Origin: Streptomyces sp. LUP30
GTDB taxonomy: Bacteria > Actinomycetota > Actinomycetes > Streptomycetales > Streptomycetaceae
DNA length: 64,000 nt
Direction of reading: 5' to 3'
Assembly: GCF_001746365.1 (NCBI RefSeq)
Contig: NZ_MJAJ01000002.1
Location: 280,312 to 344,311 of the forward strand
Shown: in pieces, positions 14,105 to 38,338 of the stretch
How the letters are laid out: every line of letters starts with the position of its first letter
Position numbering within the stretch: the first letter of the stretch is position 1
Notes under the pieces: model-generated
What the model was told of the DNA's origin: nothing
Databases searched by the model: none
The model's input: the letters and a program-made list of their open reading frames with translations, nothing else
Translations under genes and position numbers: made by a program

Positions 14105-14276
14105 CGGTGCGGACGAGCTGATGGTGCGTCAGGAGACTTGTCCCGGTGGCGGAGCCGTACCTCGAGAAGGCAGCAGACCGTCACGGCCTGCGCGCTCGGC
14201 GGTGGCAGCGCCGTGGACACGGGCGCAAGGCGCCCGCTCCTCACGCCGCGTCCGCGTCGGACAGGCTCGTCAGCCA

Positions 14277-14291
14277 GGGACAACCTGTCCC
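14277..14291. promoter_or_regulatory. GGGAC-AACCT-GTCCC palindrome upstream of an MmyB-type regulator
   Basis: A perfect inverted repeat, GGGAC, 5 bases, GTCCC (extended by CA/TG inside), about 75 bases before the regulator start at 14364. It resembles the GGGGAC...GTCCCC palindrome found in front of the other MmyB regulators in this window. Confidence 0.5.
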
Positions 14292-14363
14292 CGGTTAGAA
14301 CTACCCTTCATCCGGTTCCCGGTTCGCGCCAAGATTGCCTTGTCGAACAAAGGAGGCCGGACG

Positions 14364-15185
14364 ATGGACCGGGCGTTGCTGGCAGATTTTCTCCGAGCGC
14401 GTCGTGAGACGTTGCAGCCGGAGGATGTCGGGCTCCCCCGCGGGCAGCGGCGCCGCACCGGCGGGCTGCGGCGAGAGGAGGTGGCGGCGCTGGCCGAGAT
14501 GTCGGCCGACTACTACAGCCGAATCGAACAGCAGCGAGGTCCGGCGCCGTCGGAGCGGATGCTCGTCGCGCTCGCCCGGGCGCTGCGCCTCAACCAGAGC
14601 GAGCGCGACCACCTCTTCGTCCTGGGCGGGATCCCGGCGCCGCGGCGGATCCTGCGGGACGACTACATCGGTCCCACGATGATGCGGATCGTCGCCGGCC
14701 TCTCGGACGTGCCGGCGATCGTGCTGTCACGGCTCGGCGAGGCGTTGCTGCAGACGCCACCGGCGGTCGCCCTGCTCGGTGACTACACCCGATACTCGGG
14801 CATGTCCCGTTACCTGGTCTATCGCTGGTTCACCGGTGACGCGCGGGTCCGTGGCCTGTATCCCGTCGAGGACCATCCGATACGGGGCAGGGTCTTCGCC
14901 GCGGAGATCCGGGACGCGTACACGGCGGATCCCACCGGGAAGGCCGGCGAGATCGTCGCGGCGCTGCTGGAGGTCAGTGCCGAGTTCGCGAACATCTGGC
15001 GGTTGCACGAGGTGGGAGTGACCCATCATCACGACCTCAAGCGCTACCTGCACCCCGAGTTGGGGGAGCTGGAGCTGTACGCCGAGATGCTGTTGGATCC
15101 GGAGCAGTTTCAGACGCTGCTGGTCTTCACCGCCGTGCCCGGTTCCCCGAGCCACGGCAAGCTTCGGCTCCTGACCGCCGTCTAG
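14364..15185 (+). CDS. XRE/MmyB-type helix-turn-helix regulator
   Basis: A 273-residue regulator: an N-terminal XRE HTH (residues ~5-75; GLRREEVAALAEMSADYYSR is the family signature) and a C-terminal MmyB-like ligand-binding domain (about 105-265) ending TAVPGSPSHGKLRLL. The ATG follows AGGAGG at 7 bases. Proteins of this type usually repress an adjacent oxidoreductase gene, and a zinc-less quinone oxidoreductase follows 111 bases downstream on the same strand. It is one of four MmyB-type paralogues in the window and lacks the WN(P/R)LAAAL motif seen in the other three. Confidence 0.9.
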   Translation: MDRALLADFLRARRETLQPEDVGLPRGQRRRTGGLRREEVAALAEMSADYYSRIEQQRGPAPSERMLVALARALRLNQSERDHLFVLGGIPAPRRILRDDYIGPTMMRIVAGLSDVPAIVLSRLGEALLQTPPAVALLGDYTRYSGMSRYLVYRWFTGDARVRGLYPVEDHPIRGRVFAAEIRDAYTADPTGKAGEIVAALLEVSAEFANIWRLHEVGVTHHHDLKRYLHPELGELELYAEMLLDPEQFQTLLVFTAVPGSPSHGKLRLLTAV

Positions 15186-15296
15186 CGGCCGTCGTCCCTC
15201 ACACCTGAAGGCATTGTCTCGAAGCCGAGGCATGCCGGGTCCCACGATGATTCAAATTCGAAGCATCTTCTCCGTCACGAAAGGGTGGTATTCGCC

Positions 15297-16238
15297 ATGA
15301 AAGCAGTGCGTTTCCATGAGTACGGCACTCCGGACGTCTTGCGTTACGAGGACGTGGAACAACCGGTCCCCGCGGCCGGGGAGGTCCGGATCCGCGTGGC
15401 CGCGACGTCGTTCAACCCGGTCGACGGCAACATCCGCGCGGGCTTCATGCAGGGCCCCATCCCGGTGACCCTGCCGCACACACCCGGCATCGACGTCGCG
15501 GGCACGGTCGACGCACTGGGTCAGGGCGCGGACAAGGTCAGGGCGGGTGACCAGGTTGTCGGCTTCCTGCCGATGACCGCCCCCGGCGCGGCGGCGGAGT
15601 ACGTGCTCGCACCGGCCGACCTGCTGACGGCGGCACCCGCGAGCATCCCGCTGACCGATGCGGGCGGGCTGCCGCTGGTCGGGCTCACCGCCTGGCAGGC
15701 CCTCTTCGACCACGCCGAACTGACCGCCGGCCAGCGGGTGCTGATCAACGGTGCGGGCGGCGCGGTCGGCGGTTACGCCGTCCAACTGGCCAAGCACGCC
15801 GGCGCACACGTGATCGCCACGGCCGGGCCGCGCAGCGGCGAACGCGTCAGGAGGGCGGGCGCCGACGAGGTGTTCGGCCACGGGGTCCCCGAACTGTCCG
15901 CGCTGGTCGACGTCGTGCTCAACCTCGCGCCCGTCGACCCGATGCAACTGGCCGCGCTGACGTCGGTGGTCCGCGATGGCGGCATCGTGGTGAACACGAC
16001 GGTGTGGATGCCTGCGCCCACCGACGAGGAACGCGGCGTGCGCGGCGTCGACCTCTTCGTCAACAGCGACGCCGCGCAGCTGGCGAGACTGGTGACGCTG
16101 GTCGACTCCGGAGCGCTGCACGTCGACATCGCTCGACGGGTGCCGCTGGCCGAGCTGCCGGCGCTGCACGCGGAGGCCGCAGAAGGCGCGCTCTCCGGCA
16201 AGGTCCTCGTCCTTCCCCCCGCCGCCTCCCTCACCTAG
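15297..16238 (+). CDS. NADP-dependent quinone oxidoreductase-like MDR protein
   Basis: A 313-residue medium-chain reductase. The N-terminus MKAVRFHEYGTPDVLRYEDV, the Rossmann nucleotide loop NGAGGAVGGYAVQLAK (near residue 150) and the absence of zinc-ligand cysteines place it with quinone oxidoreductases/zeta-crystallins. The ATG at 15297 is preceded by GAAAGGGTGG. It probably reduces quinones or enals with NADPH. The upstream XRE regulator is the likely controller; this regulator plus oxidoreductase pairing recurs in broken form at 28.0-29.0 kb. Confidence 0.9.
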   Translation: MKAVRFHEYGTPDVLRYEDVEQPVPAAGEVRIRVAATSFNPVDGNIRAGFMQGPIPVTLPHTPGIDVAGTVDALGQGADKVRAGDQVVGFLPMTAPGAAAEYVLAPADLLTAAPASIPLTDAGGLPLVGLTAWQALFDHAELTAGQRVLINGAGGAVGGYAVQLAKHAGAHVIATAGPRSGERVRRAGADEVFGHGVPELSALVDVVLNLAPVDPMQLAALTSVVRDGGIVVNTTVWMPAPTDEERGVRGVDLFVNSDAAQLARLVTLVDSGALHVDIARRVPLAELPALHAEAAEGALSGKVLVLPPAASLT

Positions 16239-25103: not shown

Positions 25104-25126
25104 CCAGGGGACGATTCCTTCCCCCC
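25104..25126. promoter_or_regulatory. GGGGAC-type operator before the dienelactone hydrolase-like gene
   Basis: The core GGGGACGATTCCTTCCCC (25107-25124), preceded by CCA and followed by CC, closely matches the perfect palindrome at 27904-27921 and the reverse-strand site at 30885-30903, both in front of MmyB-type regulators. It lies about 90 bases before the start at 25215. Confidence 0.55.
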
Positions 25127-25214
25127 ATAGCGAGTGGACATCATCTCGACACCGGCGAATCATGGTGTGCGGACCGCCGATTGGCGGATCGCGGCCGACA
25201 AAGGGACAGGCGCC

Positions 25215-26129
25215 ATGGTCGAGACTGTTTCATTCAGGAACAAGGCCGTAGAGATCGCGGGACACCTCCACCTTCCGGACAATTTCGACGAGGATAAAAA
25301 ATACCCGGCCCTTGTCGGAATTCATCCGGCCGGCGGTGTGAAGGAACAGACCATCGGCGAGTACGCGAAGCGGCTGGCTTCCGAGGGCTTCGTCACCGTG
25401 GTCTACGACTCCTCCTGTCAGGGAGAGAGCGGCGGCGAACCGCGCCTTCTGGAGGACCCGACGGCCCGAGTGGAGGACGCCCGCTGCGCGGCGGACTTCC
25501 TCGCCACTCGCCCGTACGTGGACACCGAGCGGATGGGCGTCTTCGGCATCTGCGCCGGTGGCGGTTACGCGATCGGCGTGGCGCAGACCGAACGCCGTTT
25601 CAAGGCGGTCGCCACCGTCAGCGCGGCTCCGATGGGCGAAGGTTCCAGGGGCTTCCTGGGGCATCTGTCTCCGGTGTCCGAGCAGATCAAGACCCTGGAG
25701 ACGGTCGCTCAACAGCGCACAGCGGAGGCGAGGGGAGCAGAGCCCGTCTACGCCCCGTTCGTCCCGGAAACGCTGGAGGAGATCGACGACAACACGCCGG
25801 ACCTTCTCCGCGAGGGATACGACTACTACCGGACCCCACGTGGTCAGCATCCCCGTTCGAAGGGCCGTTTCCTGCTGACCAGCATGGACAAGATGTACGC
25901 GTTCTCGGCGTTCGATCAAATTCCGGAACTGCTGACCCAGCCGCTGCTCCTCATCGCGGGGAGCAAGGCGGACACAAAGGTGTTCAGCGACCAGGCTTAC
26001 GAGCTTTCCAAGGGCCCGAAGGAACTGTTCGTCGTCGACGGCGCGACTCACATCGCCATGTACGACGTTCCCGAGTACATGGATCAGGCGCTCACCAAGA
26101 TGGTGAAGTTCTTCGCCGTCCTTCAGTAG
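25215..26129 (+). CDS. Alpha/beta hydrolase, dienelactone hydrolase/YcjY-like
   Basis: A 304-residue hydrolase beginning MVETVSFRNKAVEIAGHLHL. YPALVGIHPAGGVKEQT is the oxyanion loop, DSSCQGESGG follows, and GVFGICAGGGYAIG carries a nucleophilic Cys in place of Ser (GICAGG), as in dienelactone hydrolases. The catalytic His is in VDGATHIAMYD near the C-terminus. AAGGGA precedes the ATG. The gene has a GGGGAC-type operator and a CCGCC-GATT-GGCGG repeat (25174-25187) in its leader. The neighbouring MmyB regulators are likely controllers. Confidence 0.83.
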   Translation: MVETVSFRNKAVEIAGHLHLPDNFDEDKKYPALVGIHPAGGVKEQTIGEYAKRLASEGFVTVVYDSSCQGESGGEPRLLEDPTARVEDARCAADFLATRPYVDTERMGVFGICAGGGYAIGVAQTERRFKAVATVSAAPMGEGSRGFLGHLSPVSEQIKTLETVAQQRTAEARGAEPVYAPFVPETLEEIDDNTPDLLREGYDYYRTPRGQHPRSKGRFLLTSMDKMYAFSAFDQIPELLTQPLLLIAGSKADTKVFSDQAYELSKGPKELFVVDGATHIAMYDVPEYMDQALTKMVKFFAVLQ

Positions 26130-26184
26130 CAGGCTCCCCAAGGAAAACGCCCGGAGAGCCGAGCCCGCCGTAGAAATCATTCGA

Positions 26185-26625
26185 GAAGCACGTTTGCGAT
26201 CGCCTCCGGCGCCCCCGCATACATGGGTACCGCCTCCGGGGCCTTCCACACGTTCGCCGAGGCCAGCAGCAGGCGGTGGTTCTCCCGGGCCCGGGTGGAC
26301 AAGCTCGCCGCGGGTTTCCCCAACTCCGGCGCCAAGAACGGCGACGAGTCGTCCGTCCTGGGCTACTTCGCCACGATGGCCGCCCAGCACGGCATGCACG
26401 GGCTCAGCCTGGGCCGCAGCCGGGTTGGGACTCCACCACGGGCAGCGAGGACGGCATCAACCGGTTGCGCTTTTTTTCCTGGGCGCCGGCGCACAGAGCC
26501 CGACCGACGCCGGCCCGGAGGCGGACCACAAGTCGGACATCGCCACCGCGGAGACCTGGGCGTCCGCGTCGCACGTCAGGCCGCGATCTTGCGCGCCGGT
26601 CGGACCGCCCTCGCCGCCTGATCCC
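26185..26625 (+). pseudogene. Flavodoxin/WrbA-like NAD(P)H oxidoreductase, frameshifted and 5'-truncated
   Basis: Three successive frames give one recognisable protein: FAIASGAPAYMGTASGAFHT ... KLAAGFPNSGAKNGDESSVL, then WDSTTGSEDGINRLRFF, then FLGAGAQSPTDAGPEADH and TAETW. This is the middle and end of a WrbA-type flavoprotein (family: GTPTYMG, FTNSxxxxG, DINRLGxFLGAxAQSP). One frame change falls near 26415, the other at a run of seven T (about 26468-26474). The N-terminal flavin-binding part is missing. Confidence 0.72.
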
Positions 26626-26676
26626 CGAGCCCACTCCCCCCTCCACCCATCACCCACCCCCCGCAAGGAGTACGTC

Positions 26677-27069
26677 ATGTCCGATTCCCCGAGCCTCGCC
26701 CTCATCCGCAGGCTGTACGAGTCCGGGATGGCCCCCGAAGTCACCGGTGAGGTCATGGCGCCGGACCTCATCTGGGACATCACCCCCGGCTTCCCGAACA
26801 GCGGTGTCTACCACGGGTGGGACGACGCGGCCAAGAACTTCTTCGGCGGGACGATGCCGAACTACGACTCCTTCGGCGCGGTGCCCGAGGAGTTCTACGC
26901 CGACGACGAAGGCCACGTCTTCGTGTTCGGCCACTACCACGCCGAGACGAAGACCGGGAACAAGGCCGACGTCCGGTTCATCCACCTGTGGACCGTCCGC
27001 GACGGCAAGGCCGTGAGCATGCGGCAGGCCGCCGACAGCCACATCCTCCAGGAAGCCCTCAAGGGCTGA
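26677..27069 (+). CDS. SnoaL-like (NTF2-fold) protein
   Basis: A 130-residue NTF2-fold protein of the ketosteroid isomerase/SnoaL type. VMAPDLIWDITPGFPNSGVY and FGGTMPNYDSFGAVPEEFYA form the cone core, and FGHYHAETKTGNKADVRFIH and WTVRDGKAVSMRQAADSH the beta sheet. AAGGAG stands 6 bases before the ATG. Only 24 bases separate it from the DJ-1-like gene, so the two are probably cotranscribed. Function is not predictable beyond a small-molecule-binding pocket. Confidence 0.82.
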   Translation: MSDSPSLALIRRLYESGMAPEVTGEVMAPDLIWDITPGFPNSGVYHGWDDAAKNFFGGTMPNYDSFGAVPEEFYADDEGHVFVFGHYHAETKTGNKADVRFIHLWTVRDGKAVSMRQAADSHILQEALKG

Positions 27070-27093
27070 CACCCTCACCAGGAGACGACAACC

Positions 27094-27792
27094 ATGGCGA
27101 AGATCCTCTTCGTGATCACCGCGTCCGACCACTGGACGCTGGCCGACGGCACCCGCCAACCGGCCGGCTTCTGGGCCGAGGAAGCGATCGGCCCCTACCA
27201 GGTCTTCAAGGAGGCCGGATACGAGATCGCGGCGGCGACGCCGGCCGGTGTGCCGCCGACCGCGGACGCGCTCAGCCTCACCGCGGACTTCAACGGCGGC
27301 GAGGAAGGCGCCGAGCGCATGCGGACAGCCCTGCGCGAGGCCACCGAACTGGCGCACCCGATGCGCATCGAGGACGTGAACATCGACGACTACGTGGCCG
27401 TCTTCTACCCCGGCGGCTGGGGCCCGATGGAGGACCTGCCCGAGGACGCCGCCTCCGGCAAGCTGCTGACCGAGTGGCTCGCCACCGGCAGGCCGGTCTC
27501 CCTGGTGTGCCACGGCCCCGCGGCCCTGCTGGCGACGATCGGCCCGGACGGAACATCCCCGTTCCACGGTTACCGCCTCACCGGCCTGTCGAACGCCGAG
27601 GAGAAGCTGAACGGTCTCGCCGACCGCGCGAAGTGGCTGCTCCAGGACCGCCTCATGGGCGAACTCGGGGCGGACTACCGCGAGGCCGACCCGTTCACCC
27701 CGCACGTCCAGGTCGACCGCACCCTGTACACCGGTCAGAACCCGGTCTCGGCCGTCGCCCTCGCCCAGGAACTGGTCAAGGCACTGAGCTGA
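27094..27792 (+). CDS. DJ-1/PfpI-family protein, glyoxalase III-like
   Basis: A 232-residue class I glutamine amidotransferase-like protein. The nucleophile elbow SLVCHGPAALL gives Cys139-His140, with a Glu in FWAEEAIGPY (29-30), the triad set of Hsp31/glyoxalase III relatives. FYPGGWGPMEDL is the oxyanion region. Length and the insertion after the elbow match Hsp31-like glyoxalases that convert methylglyoxal to lactate without cofactor. A detoxification role suits the neighbours. AGGAGA precedes the ATG. Confidence 0.85.
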   Translation: MAKILFVITASDHWTLADGTRQPAGFWAEEAIGPYQVFKEAGYEIAAATPAGVPPTADALSLTADFNGGEEGAERMRTALREATELAHPMRIEDVNIDDYVAVFYPGGWGPMEDLPEDAASGKLLTEWLATGRPVSLVCHGPAALLATIGPDGTSPFHGYRLTGLSNAEEKLNGLADRAKWLLQDRLMGELGADYREADPFTPHVQVDRTLYTGQNPVSAVALAQELVKALS

Positions 27793-27883
27793 CCACTCGG
27801 AAAGCGCCCGCCGGTGGCCCGGGCGTGCTCGCGCCCCGGGCCCTCTGTCCTGCCGCGGGCCTGACCGCCATCGAGGGGATCGT

Positions 27884-27921
27884 GTCCCCTGGCCGATCAG
27901 CCAGGGGACGGATCCGTCCCC
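27884..27921. promoter_or_regulatory. Overlapping palindromes in the promoter of an MmyB regulator
   Basis: GTCCCCTGGC-CGATCA-GCCAGGGGAC (27884-27909) overlaps a perfect 18-bp palindrome GGGGACGGATCCGTCCCC (27904-27921) about 36 bases before the ATG at 27958. Strong candidate autoregulatory sites. Confidence 0.65.
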
Positions 27922-27957
27922 CTCACAAGATGCGACGTTTGTGCCAGGCTGAAGGTC

Positions 27958-28827
27958 ATGAACCGCAACCCGCATCTGAACGAGCTGGGTGAGTTCCTCA
28001 AGGCCCGTCGAGCTGAGCTCACCCCCTCCGAGGTCGGCCTCCGCGGCGGGCCACGGAGGCGCGTGAAGGGACTGCGCCGTGAGGAAGTGGCACTCCTCGC
28101 CGCGATCAGCACCGAGTACTACACCCGGATCGAGCAGGGACGACTCCAGGCGTCAGCTCCCCTCCTCGACGAGATCGCCCAGGTGCTCCGTCTGAACGAC
28201 GCCCAGCGCACCTATCTCTTCGACCTCGCGGCGAAGGAGCGGGTGCGCCCGACCGCGTACCGCGAGCGCCAGCAGGTGGACCCGCAGCTGCAACGCATGC
28301 TGGACGACCTCAGCGCCTCCCCGGCCTTCGTCATCGGCCGGCGCACCGACATCCTGGGCTGGAACCGACTCGCCGCCGCCCTGTGGACCGATTTCGGGCG
28401 CTACCCCGAGCTGGAGCGGGTGTTCGTGCGGCTGCTGTTCACCGAACCCTGGATGCGTGAGCTGTACGCCGACTGGGAGGAGGTCACCCGGCTGGCCATC
28501 GCCCAGCTGCGCATGGAGAGCGCGCGCTACCCCGACGACCGGCCTCTCACCGCACTGGTCGAGGAACTCTCCGCCCGTGACCCGCAGTTCCGGCAGTGGT
28601 GGGCCGAACACGACGTCGCGATGCGGGGCAATGGCGTCAAGAAGCTGCGTCACCCTGTGGTGGGCGAGCTGACGCTCGACTGGAACACGCTCACCTGCGG
28701 TACGGATCCCGACCAGCACATCATCGTGTGGAACGCGGAACCCGGCACCCCCTCCCACGACGGGCTACGCCTGCTCGCTTCCTGGACCGCCGAGCAGAAA
28801 CCGTCGGCGTCCGACGCGGCTACCTGA
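27958..28827 (+). CDS. XRE/MmyB-type helix-turn-helix regulator
   Basis: A 289-residue regulator: XRE HTH (GLRREEVALLAAISTEYYTR, residues ~40-59) and MmyB-like ligand pocket (PAFVIGRRTDILGWNRLAAA; WWAEHDV; HPVVGELTLDW; NAEPGTPSHDGLRLLASW). GAAGG lies close before the ATG. Upstream it has two overlapping palindromes. Downstream, only a 13-codon stub of an oxidoreductase gene remains at 28946, probably its former target. It is closely related to the regulators at 29000-29872 and 29971-30849. Confidence 0.92.
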   Translation: MNRNPHLNELGEFLKARRAELTPSEVGLRGGPRRRVKGLRREEVALLAAISTEYYTRIEQGRLQASAPLLDEIAQVLRLNDAQRTYLFDLAAKERVRPTAYRERQQVDPQLQRMLDDLSASPAFVIGRRTDILGWNRLAAALWTDFGRYPELERVFVRLLFTEPWMRELYADWEEVTRLAIAQLRMESARYPDDRPLTALVEELSARDPQFRQWWAEHDVAMRGNGVKKLRHPVVGELTLDWNTLTCGTDPDQHIIVWNAEPGTPSHDGLRLLASWTAEQKPSASDAAT

Positions 28828-28945
28828 GCCTTCCCTCCCGTGCGCCCACAAGAGCTGACCAGGAACCTTCCCCTTTTCCGGGCGTACGCGAAACGGCATG
28901 GCCGGACACCTCAACGACCGCATGTCAGACAATGAGGTGCTTCGC

Positions 28946-28987
28946 ATGAAGGCTGTAGGTTTCACGGAATTCGGTGGGCCCACCTGA
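28946..28987 (+). pseudogene. Thirteen-codon stub of an MDR oxidoreductase gene
   Basis: ATG at 28946 opens MKAVGFTEFGGPT and then TGA. This is the exact N-terminus of a quinone oxidoreductase-type MDR protein (compare MKAVRFHEYGTPDVL at 15297), cut where the next gene's sequence begins. It follows an MmyB regulator in the same order as the intact pair at 14.4-16.2 kb. Confidence 0.6.
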
Positions 28988-28999
28988 CCTCCTGAGGCC

Positions 29000-29872
29000 T
29001 CAGGCTGCCGCGTCCTGTGCGGGCCGGTCCGAGTCCGCAGTCCATGACGCCAGGAACAGAAGCCCGTCGTGGGACGGGGCCCCGGGATCGGCGGTCGCGA
29101 TGACCAGTTTCTGTGTGGGATCGGCGGTGCAGGTCAGGGTGTCCCAGTCGAGGGTGAGGTCGCCGACGATCGGGTGGCGCAGCCTCTTGGTGCCCATCCA
29201 CAGGCCGTTCATCTGTCGGCCCGCCCACCACTGCCGGAAGTCGGCGTCGGCGACCGACAACGCGCCGACGAGTGCGGCCAGCTTCGGGTCGCCGGGGTAC
29301 CGGGCGGCCTCCAGCCGCAGATGGGTCACGCAGATGCGGGCGTTCGTCCTCCAGTCGAGGCAGAGCTCACGGAAGGCGGGGTCGGTGAACATCAGCCGCG
29401 CGTAGTTGCGCCTGTTCGCGGGGAGCTTGTCGAAGTCGGTGAGCAGAGCGGCTGCGAGAGGATTCCAGGCGAGGATGTCCAGGTGTCGGCCGAGGACGAG
29501 TGCGGGGGTCGTGGACAGTTCGTCCAGGATGCGTCTGAGCTGCTGATGGACCTTCCGCGCCGGCCGGCGACGCGGTTCGCACATGCCCTTTGCCGACAGC
29601 TCGAACAGGTGGGCGCGCTGGGCGTCGTCGAGGTGCAGGACGCGGGCCAGCGTGGCGAGCACCGTCCTCGGCACGGGGGTGCGCCCCTGTTCCATCCGCG
29701 CGTAGGCGCGGGCGCTGATCCCCACGAGGTGAGCGACCTCCTCACGGCGCAGCCCGGGCACTCGCCGGGGCGCCGCCCCGGACTCGGGCAGACCGACGGT
29801 CCTCGGGGTGAGCTGGGCCCGGCACACCTTGAGAAATTCTCCCAGTTCAGGCACATGGGCTTCGGTGTACAT
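29000..29872 (-). CDS. XRE/MmyB-type helix-turn-helix regulator
   Basis: A 290-residue paralogue of the neighbouring regulators. HTH segment GLRREEVAHLVGISARAYAR; pocket segments PALVLGRHLDILAWNPLAAA, QWWAGRQMN, HPIVGDLTLDWDTL and ADPGAPSHDGLLFLASW. It starts MYTEAHVPELGEFLKVCRAQ. Its 3' end abuts the oxidoreductase stub at 28946-28987, and it is tandem with another regulator gene (29971-30849) on the same strand with a 98-base spacer carrying a weaker GGGGAC-type site. Confidence 0.92.
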   Translation of the reverse strand: MYTEAHVPELGEFLKVCRAQLTPRTVGLPESGAAPRRVPGLRREEVAHLVGISARAYARMEQGRTPVPRTVLATLARVLHLDDAQRAHLFELSAKGMCEPRRRPARKVHQQLRRILDELSTTPALVLGRHLDILAWNPLAAALLTDFDKLPANRRNYARLMFTDPAFRELCLDWRTNARICVTHLRLEAARYPGDPKLAALVGALSVADADFRQWWAGRQMNGLWMGTKRLRHPIVGDLTLDWDTLTCTADPTQKLVIATADPGAPSHDGLLFLASWTADSDRPAQDAAA

Positions 29873-29907
29873 AGCAGCGAGTGTCGCAGTATCCAGTCGA
29901 AATGTGA

Positions 29908-29928
29908 GGGGGAGAGTTCTGTCCCAGG
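29908..29928. promoter_or_regulatory. Degenerate GGGGAC-type operator
   Basis: On the reverse strand the site reads CCTGGGACAGAACTCTCCCC, matching the other sites in arms (GGGAC...TCCCC) but not palindromic through its centre. It lies 36-56 bases before the regulator start at 29872. A further GGGGAC half-site stands at 29950-29955. Confidence 0.4.
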
Positions 29929-29970
29929 TCTGTCGCCTGTCGAATCGCAGGGGACGGGGAGACCTTCGTA

Positions 29971-30849
29971 TCAGCCGGTCTCGCCGGCCTGACAGATCGT
30001 GAGCCCGCCGGGCCGACCGGTGGCCCGCGAGGCGAGGGCGCTCAGTCCGTCGTACGACGGACTGCCTGGCTCCGCCGTCCAGACGACGAGTTCCTGATCG
30101 GGGTCGCCGCCGCAGATGAGGGTGTCACAGTCCAGGACGAGTTCGCCCACGACGGGATGGTGGAACCTCTTGACGCCCGCCCTGCGCGGCGGCGCGTGAC
30201 GGCCTCCCCACCATCGACCGAAGTCACTGTCCTCCACGGAGAGTTCCCCGACCATGCTGATCAGCTGCGGATCCTCGGGATGTTTGGCGGTCTCCACGCG
30301 CAGGTGGGACACGCAGTCACGGGCGACGGCCCGCCAGTCCGCGTAGAGCGTCCGCATGGAGGGATCGGTGAAGAGGATGCGGACGCAGTTCCGCCTGCCT
30401 TCCGGCACCTTCGCGAAATCGGTGAACAAGGCGGCGGCGAGCGGATTCCAGGCCAGGATGTCCATGCGGCGACCGATCACCACAGCGGGACTCACGGTGA
30501 GATCGTCGAGCAGGCGGAGCAGCTGTGGGTGCGCCTTCTGTGCGGCTGGTCGGCGGTGTCGTGCCCGCTGCCGGCCGGCCAGTTCGAACAGGTGGTCACG
30601 TTGGCGATCCGACAAGCGCAGGACATGGGCGAGAGCGGCCAGCACCGACGCGGACGGCTGGATGCGGCCCTGCTCCAGCCGTGTGTAGTAGTCGCTGCTG
30701 ACAGCGGCTAGCAGGGCGACCTCCTCTCTGCGCAGACCGGGCACACGCCGACCACCGGTGTCGGGCAGACCGACGGTTCGCGGGCTCAGCTCGGCCCTCC
30801 GCAGTTTGAGGAATTTTCCCAGCTCGTTCAGATGCGGCTCGCTGGTCAT
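29971..30849 (-). CDS. XRE/MmyB-type helix-turn-helix regulator
   Basis: A 292-residue regulator. The start MTSEPHLNELGKFLKLRRAE at 30849 is chosen because it aligns with the related proteins; an upstream extension would run through operator sequence. HTH GLRREEVALLAAVSSDYYTR; pocket PAVVIGRRMDILAWNPLAAA, HHPVVGELVLDCDTL and AEPGSPSYDGLSALAS. Upstream, on its own strand, lies a clear GGGGAC-type operator (30885-30903). It faces a broken hydrolase gene across the shared divergent region, a likely former target. Confidence 0.92.
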   Translation of the reverse strand: MTSEPHLNELGKFLKLRRAELSPRTVGLPDTGGRRVPGLRREEVALLAAVSSDYYTRLEQGRIQPSASVLAALAHVLRLSDRQRDHLFELAGRQRARHRRPAAQKAHPQLLRLLDDLTVSPAVVIGRRMDILAWNPLAAALFTDFAKVPEGRRNCVRILFTDPSMRTLYADWRAVARDCVSHLRVETAKHPEDPQLISMVGELSVEDSDFGRWWGGRHAPPRRAGVKRFHHPVVGELVLDCDTLICGGDPDQELVVWTAEPGSPSYDGLSALASRATGRPGGLTICQAGETG

Positions 30850-30884
30850 GCCAGCCAGTGTCACACCGCTCGGTCCGCACGAGG

Positions 30885-30923
30885 GGGGTAGGAATCCCTC
30901 CCCTGGATAAGGGATACCCAGGG
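30885..30923. promoter_or_regulatory. GGGGAC-type operator between a regulator and a broken hydrolase gene
   Basis: The reverse-strand core GGGGAGGGATTCCTACCCC (30885-30903) matches the sites at 25107 and 27904. Next to it CCCTGG (30901-30906) and CCAGGG (30918-30923) form a second inverted repeat, as at 27884. Confidence 0.55.
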
Positions 30924-31103
30924 CGGAATTCTCCCCTTTGCGGATTCCCGTGGAGGTGGCAGGGTCAATGGCGTGTTCGGCGATCAGAGGGCGGCGTACG
31001 GAGAGTATCCACCCGAACAAGCGGGACGGCCCGCCCCCGGGTCGGAATTGCTTTCACACGTCACCGATTTCGCGTATTTCCATTCCGCAGGCGGAGGAGA
31101 CGG

Positions 31104-31474
31104 GTGAGAACAGTGCGGACGGATGTCACCTTCGTCAGCAAGGGCCTGACGCCGACCGTCGGCAGGGTCGGCGCCGCCTGCCTCGGGCAGCCCGACCAGA
31201 TCGCCCGGTCGGACTCCTTCGCCGGCATCGATTTCCTCGCACCGCGCCCGCTGCTGATGATCGCGGGCAGCGGGGCCGTCACGGCCCACGCCGGCCGAAC
31301 GGCCGTCGAGCGCGCCGGGGCGCCGGCCGAGTTGTTCTGGATCGACGGTACGTCCCGCTTCGACCTGCACGGCGAGGACGAAGCGGACGAATACGCCTCC
31401 CCGCCCTGGCCGAGCTCATCTCGTTCTTCGGTGAGCACCTGCCCCGCCCCCCGGTTCAAGACCGAGCGGCCTGA
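31104..31474 (+). pseudogene. Alpha/beta hydrolase with internal deletion and frameshift
   Basis: GTG at 31104, after GGAGGAGA, begins VRTVRTDVTFVSKGLTP like the intact hydrolase type at 25215. The reading then jumps to the C-terminal third (SFAGIDFLAPRPLLMIAGSG ... ELFWIDGTSRFDLHGED). Near 31395 the frame changes and the end is completed as LPALAELISFFGEHLPRPP. The nucleophile domain is missing, so the product cannot work. Confidence 0.7.
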
Positions 31475-31502: not shown

Positions 31503-31835
31503 ATGTCCGAACGGAAGAAGTTCGCGCCGCCGGCGATCCAGGAGTTCGCCCCCAAGCTCGCGGAGGTGACCGACACGGTCCTGTTCGGCGACGTCTGGGA
31601 GCGGCCGGGTCTGTCTCCGCGCGACCGCAGCCTCGTCACCGTCACCGCTCTCGCCGCCTTGTACCGAACCGACCAGCTCGCCTTCCACCTCGGCAAGGCG
31701 CTGGAGAACGGCGTGACCAAGGACGAGCTGGTCGAGGCCATCACCCATCTGGCCTTCTACGCCGGATGGCCCAACGCCATGACCGCGATGACCCAGCTCA
31801 AGGAGATCGTGGAGAAGTCCGACCGGTCCGGCTGA
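31503..31835 (+). CDS. Carboxymuconolactone decarboxylase-family (AhpD-like) protein
   Basis: A 110-residue all-helical protein. WERPGLSPRDRSLVTVTALA and LAFHLGKALENGVTKDELVE are the CMD-family signature, and HLAFYAGWPNAMTAM holds the conserved His. No CxxC is present, so it is not a peroxiredoxin-reductase AhpD but the gamma-carboxymuconolactone decarboxylase-like subgroup, often found next to a cupin and an alcohol dehydrogenase, as here. The AGGAG ribosome-binding site is well placed. Confidence 0.88.
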   Translation: MSERKKFAPPAIQEFAPKLAEVTDTVLFGDVWERPGLSPRDRSLVTVTALAALYRTDQLAFHLGKALENGVTKDELVEAITHLAFYAGWPNAMTAMTQLKEIVEKSDRSG

Positions 31836-32087: not shown

Positions 32088-33104
32088 ATGCGAGCAACCA
32101 TCATTCATGCGCCTGGGGACATCCGGGTGGAGAACGCCCCCGAGCCGAAGATCGTGGCGCCCACGGACGCGGTCATCCGCACCGTCGCCACCTGTGTGTG
32201 CGGCTCCGACCTGTGGAGCTACCGCGGCATCAATCCGGTCAACGAGCCGCAGCCGATCGGCCACGAGTACGTCGGCATCGTCGAAGAGGTCGGCAGCGGC
32301 GTCTCGGCTGTGAAGCCCGGTCAGTTCGTCATCGGCTCCTTCATCGCCTCCGACAACACCTGCCCGGTCTGCCGGGCCGGCTATCACACCTCCTGTCTGC
32401 ACCGGGACTTCCCCAACGGCTGCCAGGCCGAGTACGTCCGCATCCCCCTCGCCGACGGCACCCTGGTCGCCACCCCGGAACAGCCGGCCGAGGAGCTGAT
32501 CCCCAGCCTGCTGACGCTCTCCGACGTCATGGGCACCGGCTGGTACGCCGCCACGGCGGCCGAGGTCAGGCCAGGGTCGACGGCCGTGGTCGTCGGTGAC
32601 GGCGCGGTGGGCCTGTGCGGTGTCATCGCCGCCAAGGAGCTGGGGGCCGAGCGCATCATCGCGATGAGCCGGCACGAGTCCCGGCAGAAGCTGGCCCTGG
32701 AATTCGGAGCGACCGACATCGTCGCCGAACGCGGCGAGGAAGGCGTCGCACGCGTCAAGGAACTGACCGACGGCATCGGCGCCGAGTCCGTCCTCGAATG
32801 CGTAGGCACCCAGCAGTCCATGCACCAGGCCCTGCAGTCCACGCGTCCCGGCGGCAACGTCGGCTTCGTCGGCATGCCGCACGACGTGCAGATCGACGGC
32901 CAGGAGCTCTTCTTCTCCCACGTCGGCCTGCGCGGTGGTCCCGCCCCCGTGCGCGCCTATCTTCCCGACCTGATCGAGCGCGTCGTCGGCGGCCGCATCA
33001 ACCCGGGCAAGGTCTTCGACCTCACCCTGCCCCTGGACGAGGTCGCAGAAGGTTACAAGGCCATGGACGAGCGCCGCGCCATCAAGGCATTGCTCCGCCC
33101 GTGA
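32088..33104 (+). CDS. Zinc-dependent alcohol dehydrogenase-family protein
   Basis: A 338-residue MDR enzyme. Catalytic zinc ligands lie in TCVCGSDLW (Cys) and [10 protein letters not shown] (His-Glu), the structural-zinc loop in [14 protein letters not shown], and the nucleotide loop in [35 protein letters not shown]-type sequence after the loop fits NAD(P) binding. It follows the CMD gene and the cupin fragment, the usual order of a small dehydrogenase operon. The ATG at 32088 has GGGAAG upstream. Confidence 0.9.
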
Positions 33105-38311: not shown

Positions 38312-38338
38312 CCAGTAAGAGATGGAGAACCTTCTCCC

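Follow-up and report, generated by a model that had tools for sequence, protein, structure and literature searches.

The 64,000-nucleotide stretch analysed here (the window) is part of a single contig of the 9.18-Mb genome of Streptomyces sp. LUP30, whose close relatives are also Streptomyces. It encodes four MmyB-type regulators, each of which combines an XRE-type helix-turn-helix (HTH) with an MLTR_LBD domain according to profile searches. Here, we describe a palindromic element that stands in front of three of these regulators, R1 to R3, and of one likely target gene, and that we consider a predicted operator of the regulators themselves. The regulator genes, in window positions, are:

27958-28827, plus strand: R1, MmyB-type XRE regulator (PF17765, 3.7e-59, 200 bits; HTH_31)
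29000-29872, minus strand: R2, MmyB-type XRE regulator (PF17765, 9.2e-57, 192.2 bits; HTH_31)
29971-30849, minus strand: R3, MmyB-type XRE regulator (PF17765, 1.7e-60, 204.4 bits; HTH_31)
14364-15185, plus strand: R4, a more distant MmyB-type regulator (PF17765, 8.7e-32, 110.9 bits; HTH_31)

All four lie above the curated PF17765 cut-off of 26.3 bits and above that of PF13560 (HTH_31), and the string GLRREE is unchanged across 11 aligned paralogues. Identity to R1 is 52% for R2, 56% for R3, and 37% for R4. R3 is divergent from a hydrolase gene remnant and from the genes of a carboxymuconolactone-decarboxylase-type protein (CMD) and a zinc alcohol dehydrogenase; the genes upstream of R1 and R2 lie on the same strand as the regulator. 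The 3' part of the R3 gene contains a perfect 22-bp palindrome, CAGTCCGTCGTACGACGGACTG, at 30043-30064. Gene numbers in this family differ strongly between genomes of the genus, with PF17765 matches ranging from 1 (G008) to 46 (G011) among 31 genomes.

Palindromic sites in the window

A preliminary description of this DNA had placed a perfect 18-bp palindrome, GGGGACGGATCCGTCCCC, at 27904-27921, exactly where we located it, and had suggested that it, together with close versions at 25107 and 30885 and weaker ones at 29908 and 14277, may be an operator shared by four cross-regulating paralogues. By simple string similarity, this set of five sites is hardly above chance: a search allowing up to three mismatches returned only two matches (27904, and 25107 with three mismatches), and 7 of 100 shuffled sequences gave as many. 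Perfection was discarded as evidence as well, since perfect palindromes of at least 18 bp are common in second-order Markov sequence (38 in 40 windows) and the window itself has a longer one, of 22 bp, inside the R3 gene. It is the comparison with relatives that indicates that the palindrome is real and conserved. When the window was scored with a symmetric matrix learned from relatives of R1 to R3, with its own genome outside the training set, the four best places reached 18.4 to 23.0 bits and the next one 9.7 bits, while the maxima of 40 random windows averaged 11.9 bits, the highest being 17.7. The sites, with symmetric scores unless stated otherwise, are:

29906-29929, minus strand: R2 operator, ACCTGGGACAGAACTCTCCCCCTC on the gene strand (23.0 bits, top place of the window)
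27901-27924, plus strand: R1 operator, including the perfect 18-bp palindrome (22.4 bits; a footprint in R1 orthologues)
25104-25127, plus strand: operator before an alpha/beta hydrolase gene, CCAGGGGACGATTCCTTCCCCCCA (19.9 bits, rank 3; asymmetric matrix 13.7 bits, rank 5)
30883-30906, minus strand: R3 operator, CCAGGGGAGGGATTCCTACCCCCC on the gene strand (18.4 bits)
30916-30939, plus strand: weaker second operator, positioned for the divergent promoter (7.0 bits as placed here, 9.7 one base further)
27875-27889, no strand assigned: second palindrome-like stretch upstream of the R1 operator, GGGGATCGTGTCCCC (uncertain; incompletely kept in close relatives)

With an asymmetric matrix, the three regulator sites ranked first to third (33.4, 31.1, and 18.5 bits), and the hydrolase site came fifth, after an unrelated place at 38314 (14.2 bits). 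Because the training set contained orthologues, the ranking of the regulator sites reflects a footprint and does not amount to an independent prediction. None of the training promoters of the matrix included the hydrolase site, which is kept before hydrolase orthologues in relatives.

The earlier proposal is supported in part. The sites at 25104, 27901, 29906, and 30883 form one operator type and do precede MmyB-type regulators or a likely target; the places proposed at 30885 and 29908, both more than three mismatches away from the string, coincide with the matrix operators at 30883 and 29906, the latter being the best place of all. The site at 14277, before R4, was rejected as a member of the set. 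It is a palindrome of a different type, so that three regulators and one target take the place of the four paralogues and five sites suggested before.

Clade motif and promoter layout

The upstream DNA of 79 loci with relatives of R1 to R3 was searched for palindromes without a prior motif, and the motif was trained on 68 of 78 upstream regions (L143 and 10 near-duplicates dropped, own genome excluded). The best de novo model was cngGGGAnagATctnTCCCcng, or tCCtGGGAnaaAtCncTCCCCCtcaCa when symmetry was not forced, with a likelihood of 409, compared with 43-53 in six shuffled sets and 173-218 in six sets of random segments. A site of at least 12 bits was present in the regulator's own upstream region in 64 of the 79 loci, 50 sites being centred at -43 to -46. 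The preliminary description had named a lack of matrix enrichment upstream of MmyB-type regulators as the result that would speak against its claim; by this test, the claim was not refuted.

For a column count, 51 of the 68 relatives were aligned by operator centre, and the other 17 (score below 10 bits or distance outside 40-50 bp) were dropped. Information peaks over the operator (-12 to +10), over TCACA at +11 to +15, the expected place of a -35 hexamer, over T+30, G+31, A+34, and T+38 (0.70-1.34 bits), and over the start codon, whereas columns +16 to +29 carry only 0.02-0.30 bits (one 0.43). Within the 40-50 bp filter, the start codon lies at +45 to +47 in 49 of the 51 relatives, which leaves little space for a leader. 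In the window, R1, R2, and R3 all have the start codon at +46 from the operator centre and a -10-like hexamer at +33 to +38; judged by these distances, their start codons are apparently leaderless. For R1, the columns of the 51 relatives define the following element:

27942-27950, plus strand: extended -10-like element of R1, TGCCAGGCT, with a hexamer that starts 33 bp past the operator centre

As far as these alignments tell, the relatives have a layout in common: the operator is centred about 45 bp before the start, adjoins the -35, and is followed, 33 bp from its centre, by an extended -10 (TGnnAnnnT).

We then counted the -10 letters at 89 distinct sites other than the regulators' own promoters, with 4 duplicates removed, along with strands on which a second operator (above 7 bits) occupied the -10 place. 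All four letters were present at 35 of these 89 sites, compared with 28 of 20,000 random positions. Among the 73 sites whose best strand does not enter an MmyB gene, the count was 19, which is an upper value; on inspection by eye, three of the four matches before CMD genes fall within a weaker second operator. With a spacing of about 33 bp between two operators, the second core, TGGAATTCT, itself fits TGnnAnnnT, and this is notable before CMD genes. Broken down by target, a full match was found before flavodoxin genes in 7 of 11 cases, before the second hydrolase type in 14 of 20, before SnoaL-like genes in 3 of 3, before CMD genes in 4 of 9 (only L134 6097 being clear), and before short-chain dehydrogenase/reductase (SDR) genes in 1 of 8.

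Divergent regulator/target pairs often carry two operators with a spacing of about 32-34 bp (22 sites fall at -76 to -78), and in L134 and L156 each of the two is correctly spaced from one of the two promoters. From their positions, the window equivalents would be 30883-30906 for R3 and the weaker 30916-30939 for the divergent unit; TGGCAGGGT at 30957-30965 stands at the canonical distance from the latter.

Neighbouring genes, R4, and the wider family

The genes and gene remnants around the operators, all on the plus strand, are:

25215-26129, plus strand: dienelactone-hydrolase-type alpha/beta hydrolase, likely target (PF01738, 6e-11)
26196-26606, plus strand: flavodoxin-like gene remnant, N-terminal part missing (tblastn match to residues 77-213 of the L132 protein, 55%)
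26677-27069, plus strand: SnoaL-like protein (PF12680)
27094-27792, plus strand: DJ-1/PfpI family protein (PF01965)
28946-28987, plus strand: first codons of a quinone-oxidoreductase-like gene, then a stop (by eye; too short for tblastn)
31194-31456, plus strand: second hydrolase gene remnant (tblastn, two pieces, 54% and 67%)
31503-31835, plus strand: CMD, likely target (PF02627)
32088-33104, plus strand: zinc alcohol dehydrogenase, possibly part of the same unit (PF00107, PF08240)

The local regulon seems eroded in this strain, because the three remnants (26196-26606, 28946-28987, and 31194-31456) are intact and operator-bearing in relatives: intact flavodoxin-like genes have the operator in front, the quinone oxidoreductase gene stands behind R1 with an operator of its own, and the second hydrolase gene is divergent from an R3-like gene.

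Outside the training loci, we searched for the pattern CCWGGGGANNNNTYNNTMCCCC, modelled on the R1, R3, and hydrolase sites. An exact search of the own 9.18-Mb genome gave no match beyond the modelled sites, and with two mismatches allowed, the 34 matches were near noise (24 for the reversed control). Among 294 other genomes of the genus, the pattern had 34 exact matches in 15 genomes, compared with 6 for the reversed pattern. The surroundings of 27 of these 34 were read, the remaining 7 having no locus; two of the loci read overlap, and some of the genomes are probably of the same species as the 79 loci. In seven of the 27, the GLRREE codons of an MmyB-like gene follow 155-159 nt downstream, and 12 have an MmyB-like gene within 1.5 kb; an MmyB-like gene or a marker string, these being short strings from hydrolase, flavodoxin, CMD, dehydrogenase, oxidoreductase, and major facilitator superfamily (MFS) genes, occurs within 1.5 kb of 22, and neither within that distance of 5.

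For the wider family, MmyB upstream regions were collected from 30 further genomes of the genus, giving 114 regions with the own genome included and 108 after removal of near-duplicates (L013 was kept despite a spurious anchor). In a dyad count over these 108 regions, CCTGG N11 CCAGG ranked first and CCAGG N11 CCTGG third, with 6 regions each against an expected 0-0.05. The 95 regions from other genomes yielded the motif agCCTGgcaCTGnCAGtgcCAGGct from random and anchored starts alike; its likelihood of 476, set against 45-59 in six shuffled sets as the sole control, is inflated because many of the regions come from one conserved orthologue group. The most frequent position of its centre is 43 or 44 bp ahead of the start codon (29 of 76 sites). 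Upstream of R1, R2, and R3, this general matrix reached at best -2.5, 1.1, and -1.8 bits, away from the operators, and the R1-R3 clade prefers palindromes of even width, whereas the general type is odd-centred; subclades would therefore differ in their arms and by about 1 bp in spacing. The two types agree in their place before the start, with the centre at about 43-46 bp and at a fixed distance from an nAnnnT element. The proposed family-wide operator thus holds at the level of the subclade: the element recurs at the same place before relatives of R1 to R3, while the family at large has a motif with other arms and another centre.

The family motif was also searched as CCTGGNNCTGNCAGNNCCAGG over 61 genomes, 51 of them from genera outside the training set, and occurred at nine places in eight genomes, compared with one place for the reversed control. 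Eight of the nine could be read (the ninth had no locus), and the own place and six of the seven from other genera lie 140-150 nt before GLRREE codons; for the six, where the genes were called MmyB-like from GLRREE alone, the distance is 142-150 nt. The seventh does not. In L287, an exact family-type palindrome has no MmyB-like gene directly downstream but CACACT and an ATG near the canonical distance, and may precede a target gene. R4 has a palindrome of its own type:

14272-14296, plus strand: palindrome before R4, CCAGGGACAACCTGTCCCCGG, odd-centred, a different operator type (10.6 bits with the general family matrix)

It is not among the 18 matches listed for either clade matrix. Palindromes of this type stand in the close relatives L261 (CCACGGACAACTCGTCCCC) and L263 (CCACGGACAACTTGTCCGTGG), not in L262, and none was seen by eye among 20 homologues at 54-61% identity; L269, L272, and L283, however, show a palindrome of another kind. 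Behind R4 lies a quinone-oxidoreductase-like gene (14364-16211 together) that matches the oxidoreductases behind R1 in relatives at 36-39%, a similar regulator-enzyme pair with a different operator. In a subclade with L164, L169, L174-L182, and L184, two tandem palindromes (roughly TCCCCGGACA..TGTCCTGGGACA) between the regulator and a divergent hydrolase gene look like a third operator type.

Predicted mechanism and alternative readings

What can be read from the sequences directly is that the operators exist and are conserved, that they are centred about 45 bp ahead of an apparently leaderless start and adjoin the -35, and that the regulator promoters and some target promoters have the -10-like element at 33 bp. 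We interpret the four sites as predicted operators to which ligand-controlled dimers of this MmyB subclade bind before their own genes, probably activating transcription beside the -35 within a small local regulon, and we give this reading a probability of roughly 0.77. Each dimer would bind its own promoter and nearby target promoters through a 22-24 bp palindrome with the core GGGA-N8-TCCC, of which the R1 and hydrolase sites have a fuller form, CCWGGGGA-N8-TCCCC. We infer that the MmyB proteins themselves are the binders because different subclades place a palindrome of their own type at this position, upstream of their own genes. Since a single matrix covers all four sites, it is plausible that R1, R2, and R3 cross-bind; paralogue matrices, the one for R2 being built from one site, gave no clean separation when used to assign target sites to the three.

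At the PRM promoter of phage lambda, cI sits as an XRE-type dimer next to the -35 with a set spacing, as other class II activators do. An operator-bound MmyB dimer with a lipophilic ligand in its PAS-like domain might activate in the same manner, its centre being at about -45 if the start codon is taken as the transcription start. An operator that ends at the -35, the near-fixed distance in relatives, and the weak-looking promoters would fit an activator touching the polymerase. Going by family names, the regulon (hydrolases, flavodoxin, CMD, dehydrogenases, SnoaL, MFS) may handle reactive or lipophilic small molecules in a detoxification-like role.

Several of these features have counterparts in known systems. 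MltR, the structural prototype of the family, is a dimer with recognition helices spanning about 10 bp and a fatty acid in its PAS-like domain, MmyB is described as recognising pseudo-palindromic B-boxes, and MmyB/MltR regulators are divergent from a putative target, often an SDR or medium-chain dehydrogenase/reductase gene, and are tied to antibiotic and oxidoreductase genes (PMC3406030). R1 to R3 resemble these MmyB/MltR proteins (PF17765) in domain content, in the symmetric site expected for an XRE dimer, and in their oxidoreductase gene neighbours (PMC3406030), and differ from the general MmyB form in having GGGA..TCCC arms and an even centre instead of CCTGG..CCAGG and an odd one. The B-boxes are likened to our motif by their description as pseudo-palindromes, and looking for them on a Streptomyces anthocyanicus plasmid yielded no usable result. 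Palindromes upstream of XRE genes are also the principle of a catalogue of 223 motif clusters, in which 9 of 10 tested pairs were bound (PMC12565409). In the literature searched, parts of these papers included, no MmyB-family operator appeared beyond the named B-boxes, and the supplement of PMC12565409 may hold related motifs.

The strongest rival reading, most of all at the first hydrolase gene, whose site lacks the activator spacing, keeps the same operators and makes the proteins autorepressors released by a ligand: a dimer beside the -35 would block RNA polymerase, and the operator pair between R3 and the divergent unit would shut both promoters. We regard repression as a serious possibility, though clearly the less probable one. 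Autorepression is common among XRE-type regulators, and several target classes lack activator-like spacing. MsrR of Corynebacterium glutamicum, another XRE protein, represses its own gene and a divergent gene, and resembles R3 in that its site lies between divergent genes, next to an mfs gene (PMC7532634); it differs from R1 to R3 in being a thiol-based sensor and repressor of 240 residues. What speaks for activation instead is that in relatives the operator keeps its distance from the -35/-10 pair across a spacer that is hardly conserved, that both promoter elements look weak by eye, and that MmyB is described as turning its genes on (PMC3406030).

The other readings fare far worse. The GGGAC and GTCCC arms of the R1 site recall the DosR/DevR-type box (GGGAC..GTCCC), whose arms are 4 bp apart, but here they are 6 bp apart, the clade does not conserve the C of GGGAC (0.02 bits in column -4), the sites stand in front of MmyB genes, other subclades show palindromes of their own in that position, and exact matches to the family motif in other genera lead to MmyB-like genes; binding by such a different regulator is very improbable, and we rejected it. 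Functionless likeness, left over from promoters that were copied with paralogous genes and have not yet diverged, would fit the 52-56% identity of R2 and R3 to R1 and the shared history of orthologous promoters, yet conservation is focused on the operator, TCACA, the -10, and the start with little in between, and the hydrolase promoter is no copy of a regulator gene while its site is kept in relatives, which makes this reading a shade more improbable still. Least credible are RNA hairpins or terminators, also rejected: a perfect inverted repeat is able to fold, but the palindromes lie upstream of the apparent promoter and would hence be outside the regulator transcript, and no long T-run follows them in the sequence.

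Activation from predicted self-binding operators, which we prefer, has several results to its disadvantage. No own-upstream site reached 12 bits in 15 of the 79 loci, and because the loci share descent, their counts do not represent independent events. With R1 orthologues and four syntenic R2/R3 relatives excluded from training, another subclade dominated the matrix, and 29906 ranked 4, 27901 rank 28, and 14277 rank 46. With the asymmetric matrix, the R3 site (18.5 bits) and the hydrolase site (13.7 bits) stay below the highest of 40 controls (19.7 bits). The full -10 spacing was found at none of 18 sites before the first hydrolase type, none of 4 before MFS genes, and none of 10 before quinone oxidoreductase genes (two with three letters), and the hydrolase site of the window has one of the four letters of the TGnnAnnnT at +30; a single activation geometry therefore does not fit all targets.

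The whole MmyB/MltR family may follow one blueprint, in which the operator abuts the -35 and keeps a constant spacing to a leaderless start, with arms and centre drifting between subclades (21 bp and odd in one type, 22 bp and even in another); we consider the chances of this evenly balanced. The family is large and poorly mapped, and the matrix together with the promoter layout would allow targets to be predicted genome by genome. The sites can be used directly as DNA probes in tests of binding and of ligands, and paralogue-operator pairs may serve for building switches in Streptomyces. If the blueprint is true, the many paralogues of one Streptomyces would make up a natural set of activator-operator pairs that are insulated in part, and sequence would be enough to read their targets and specificity rules.

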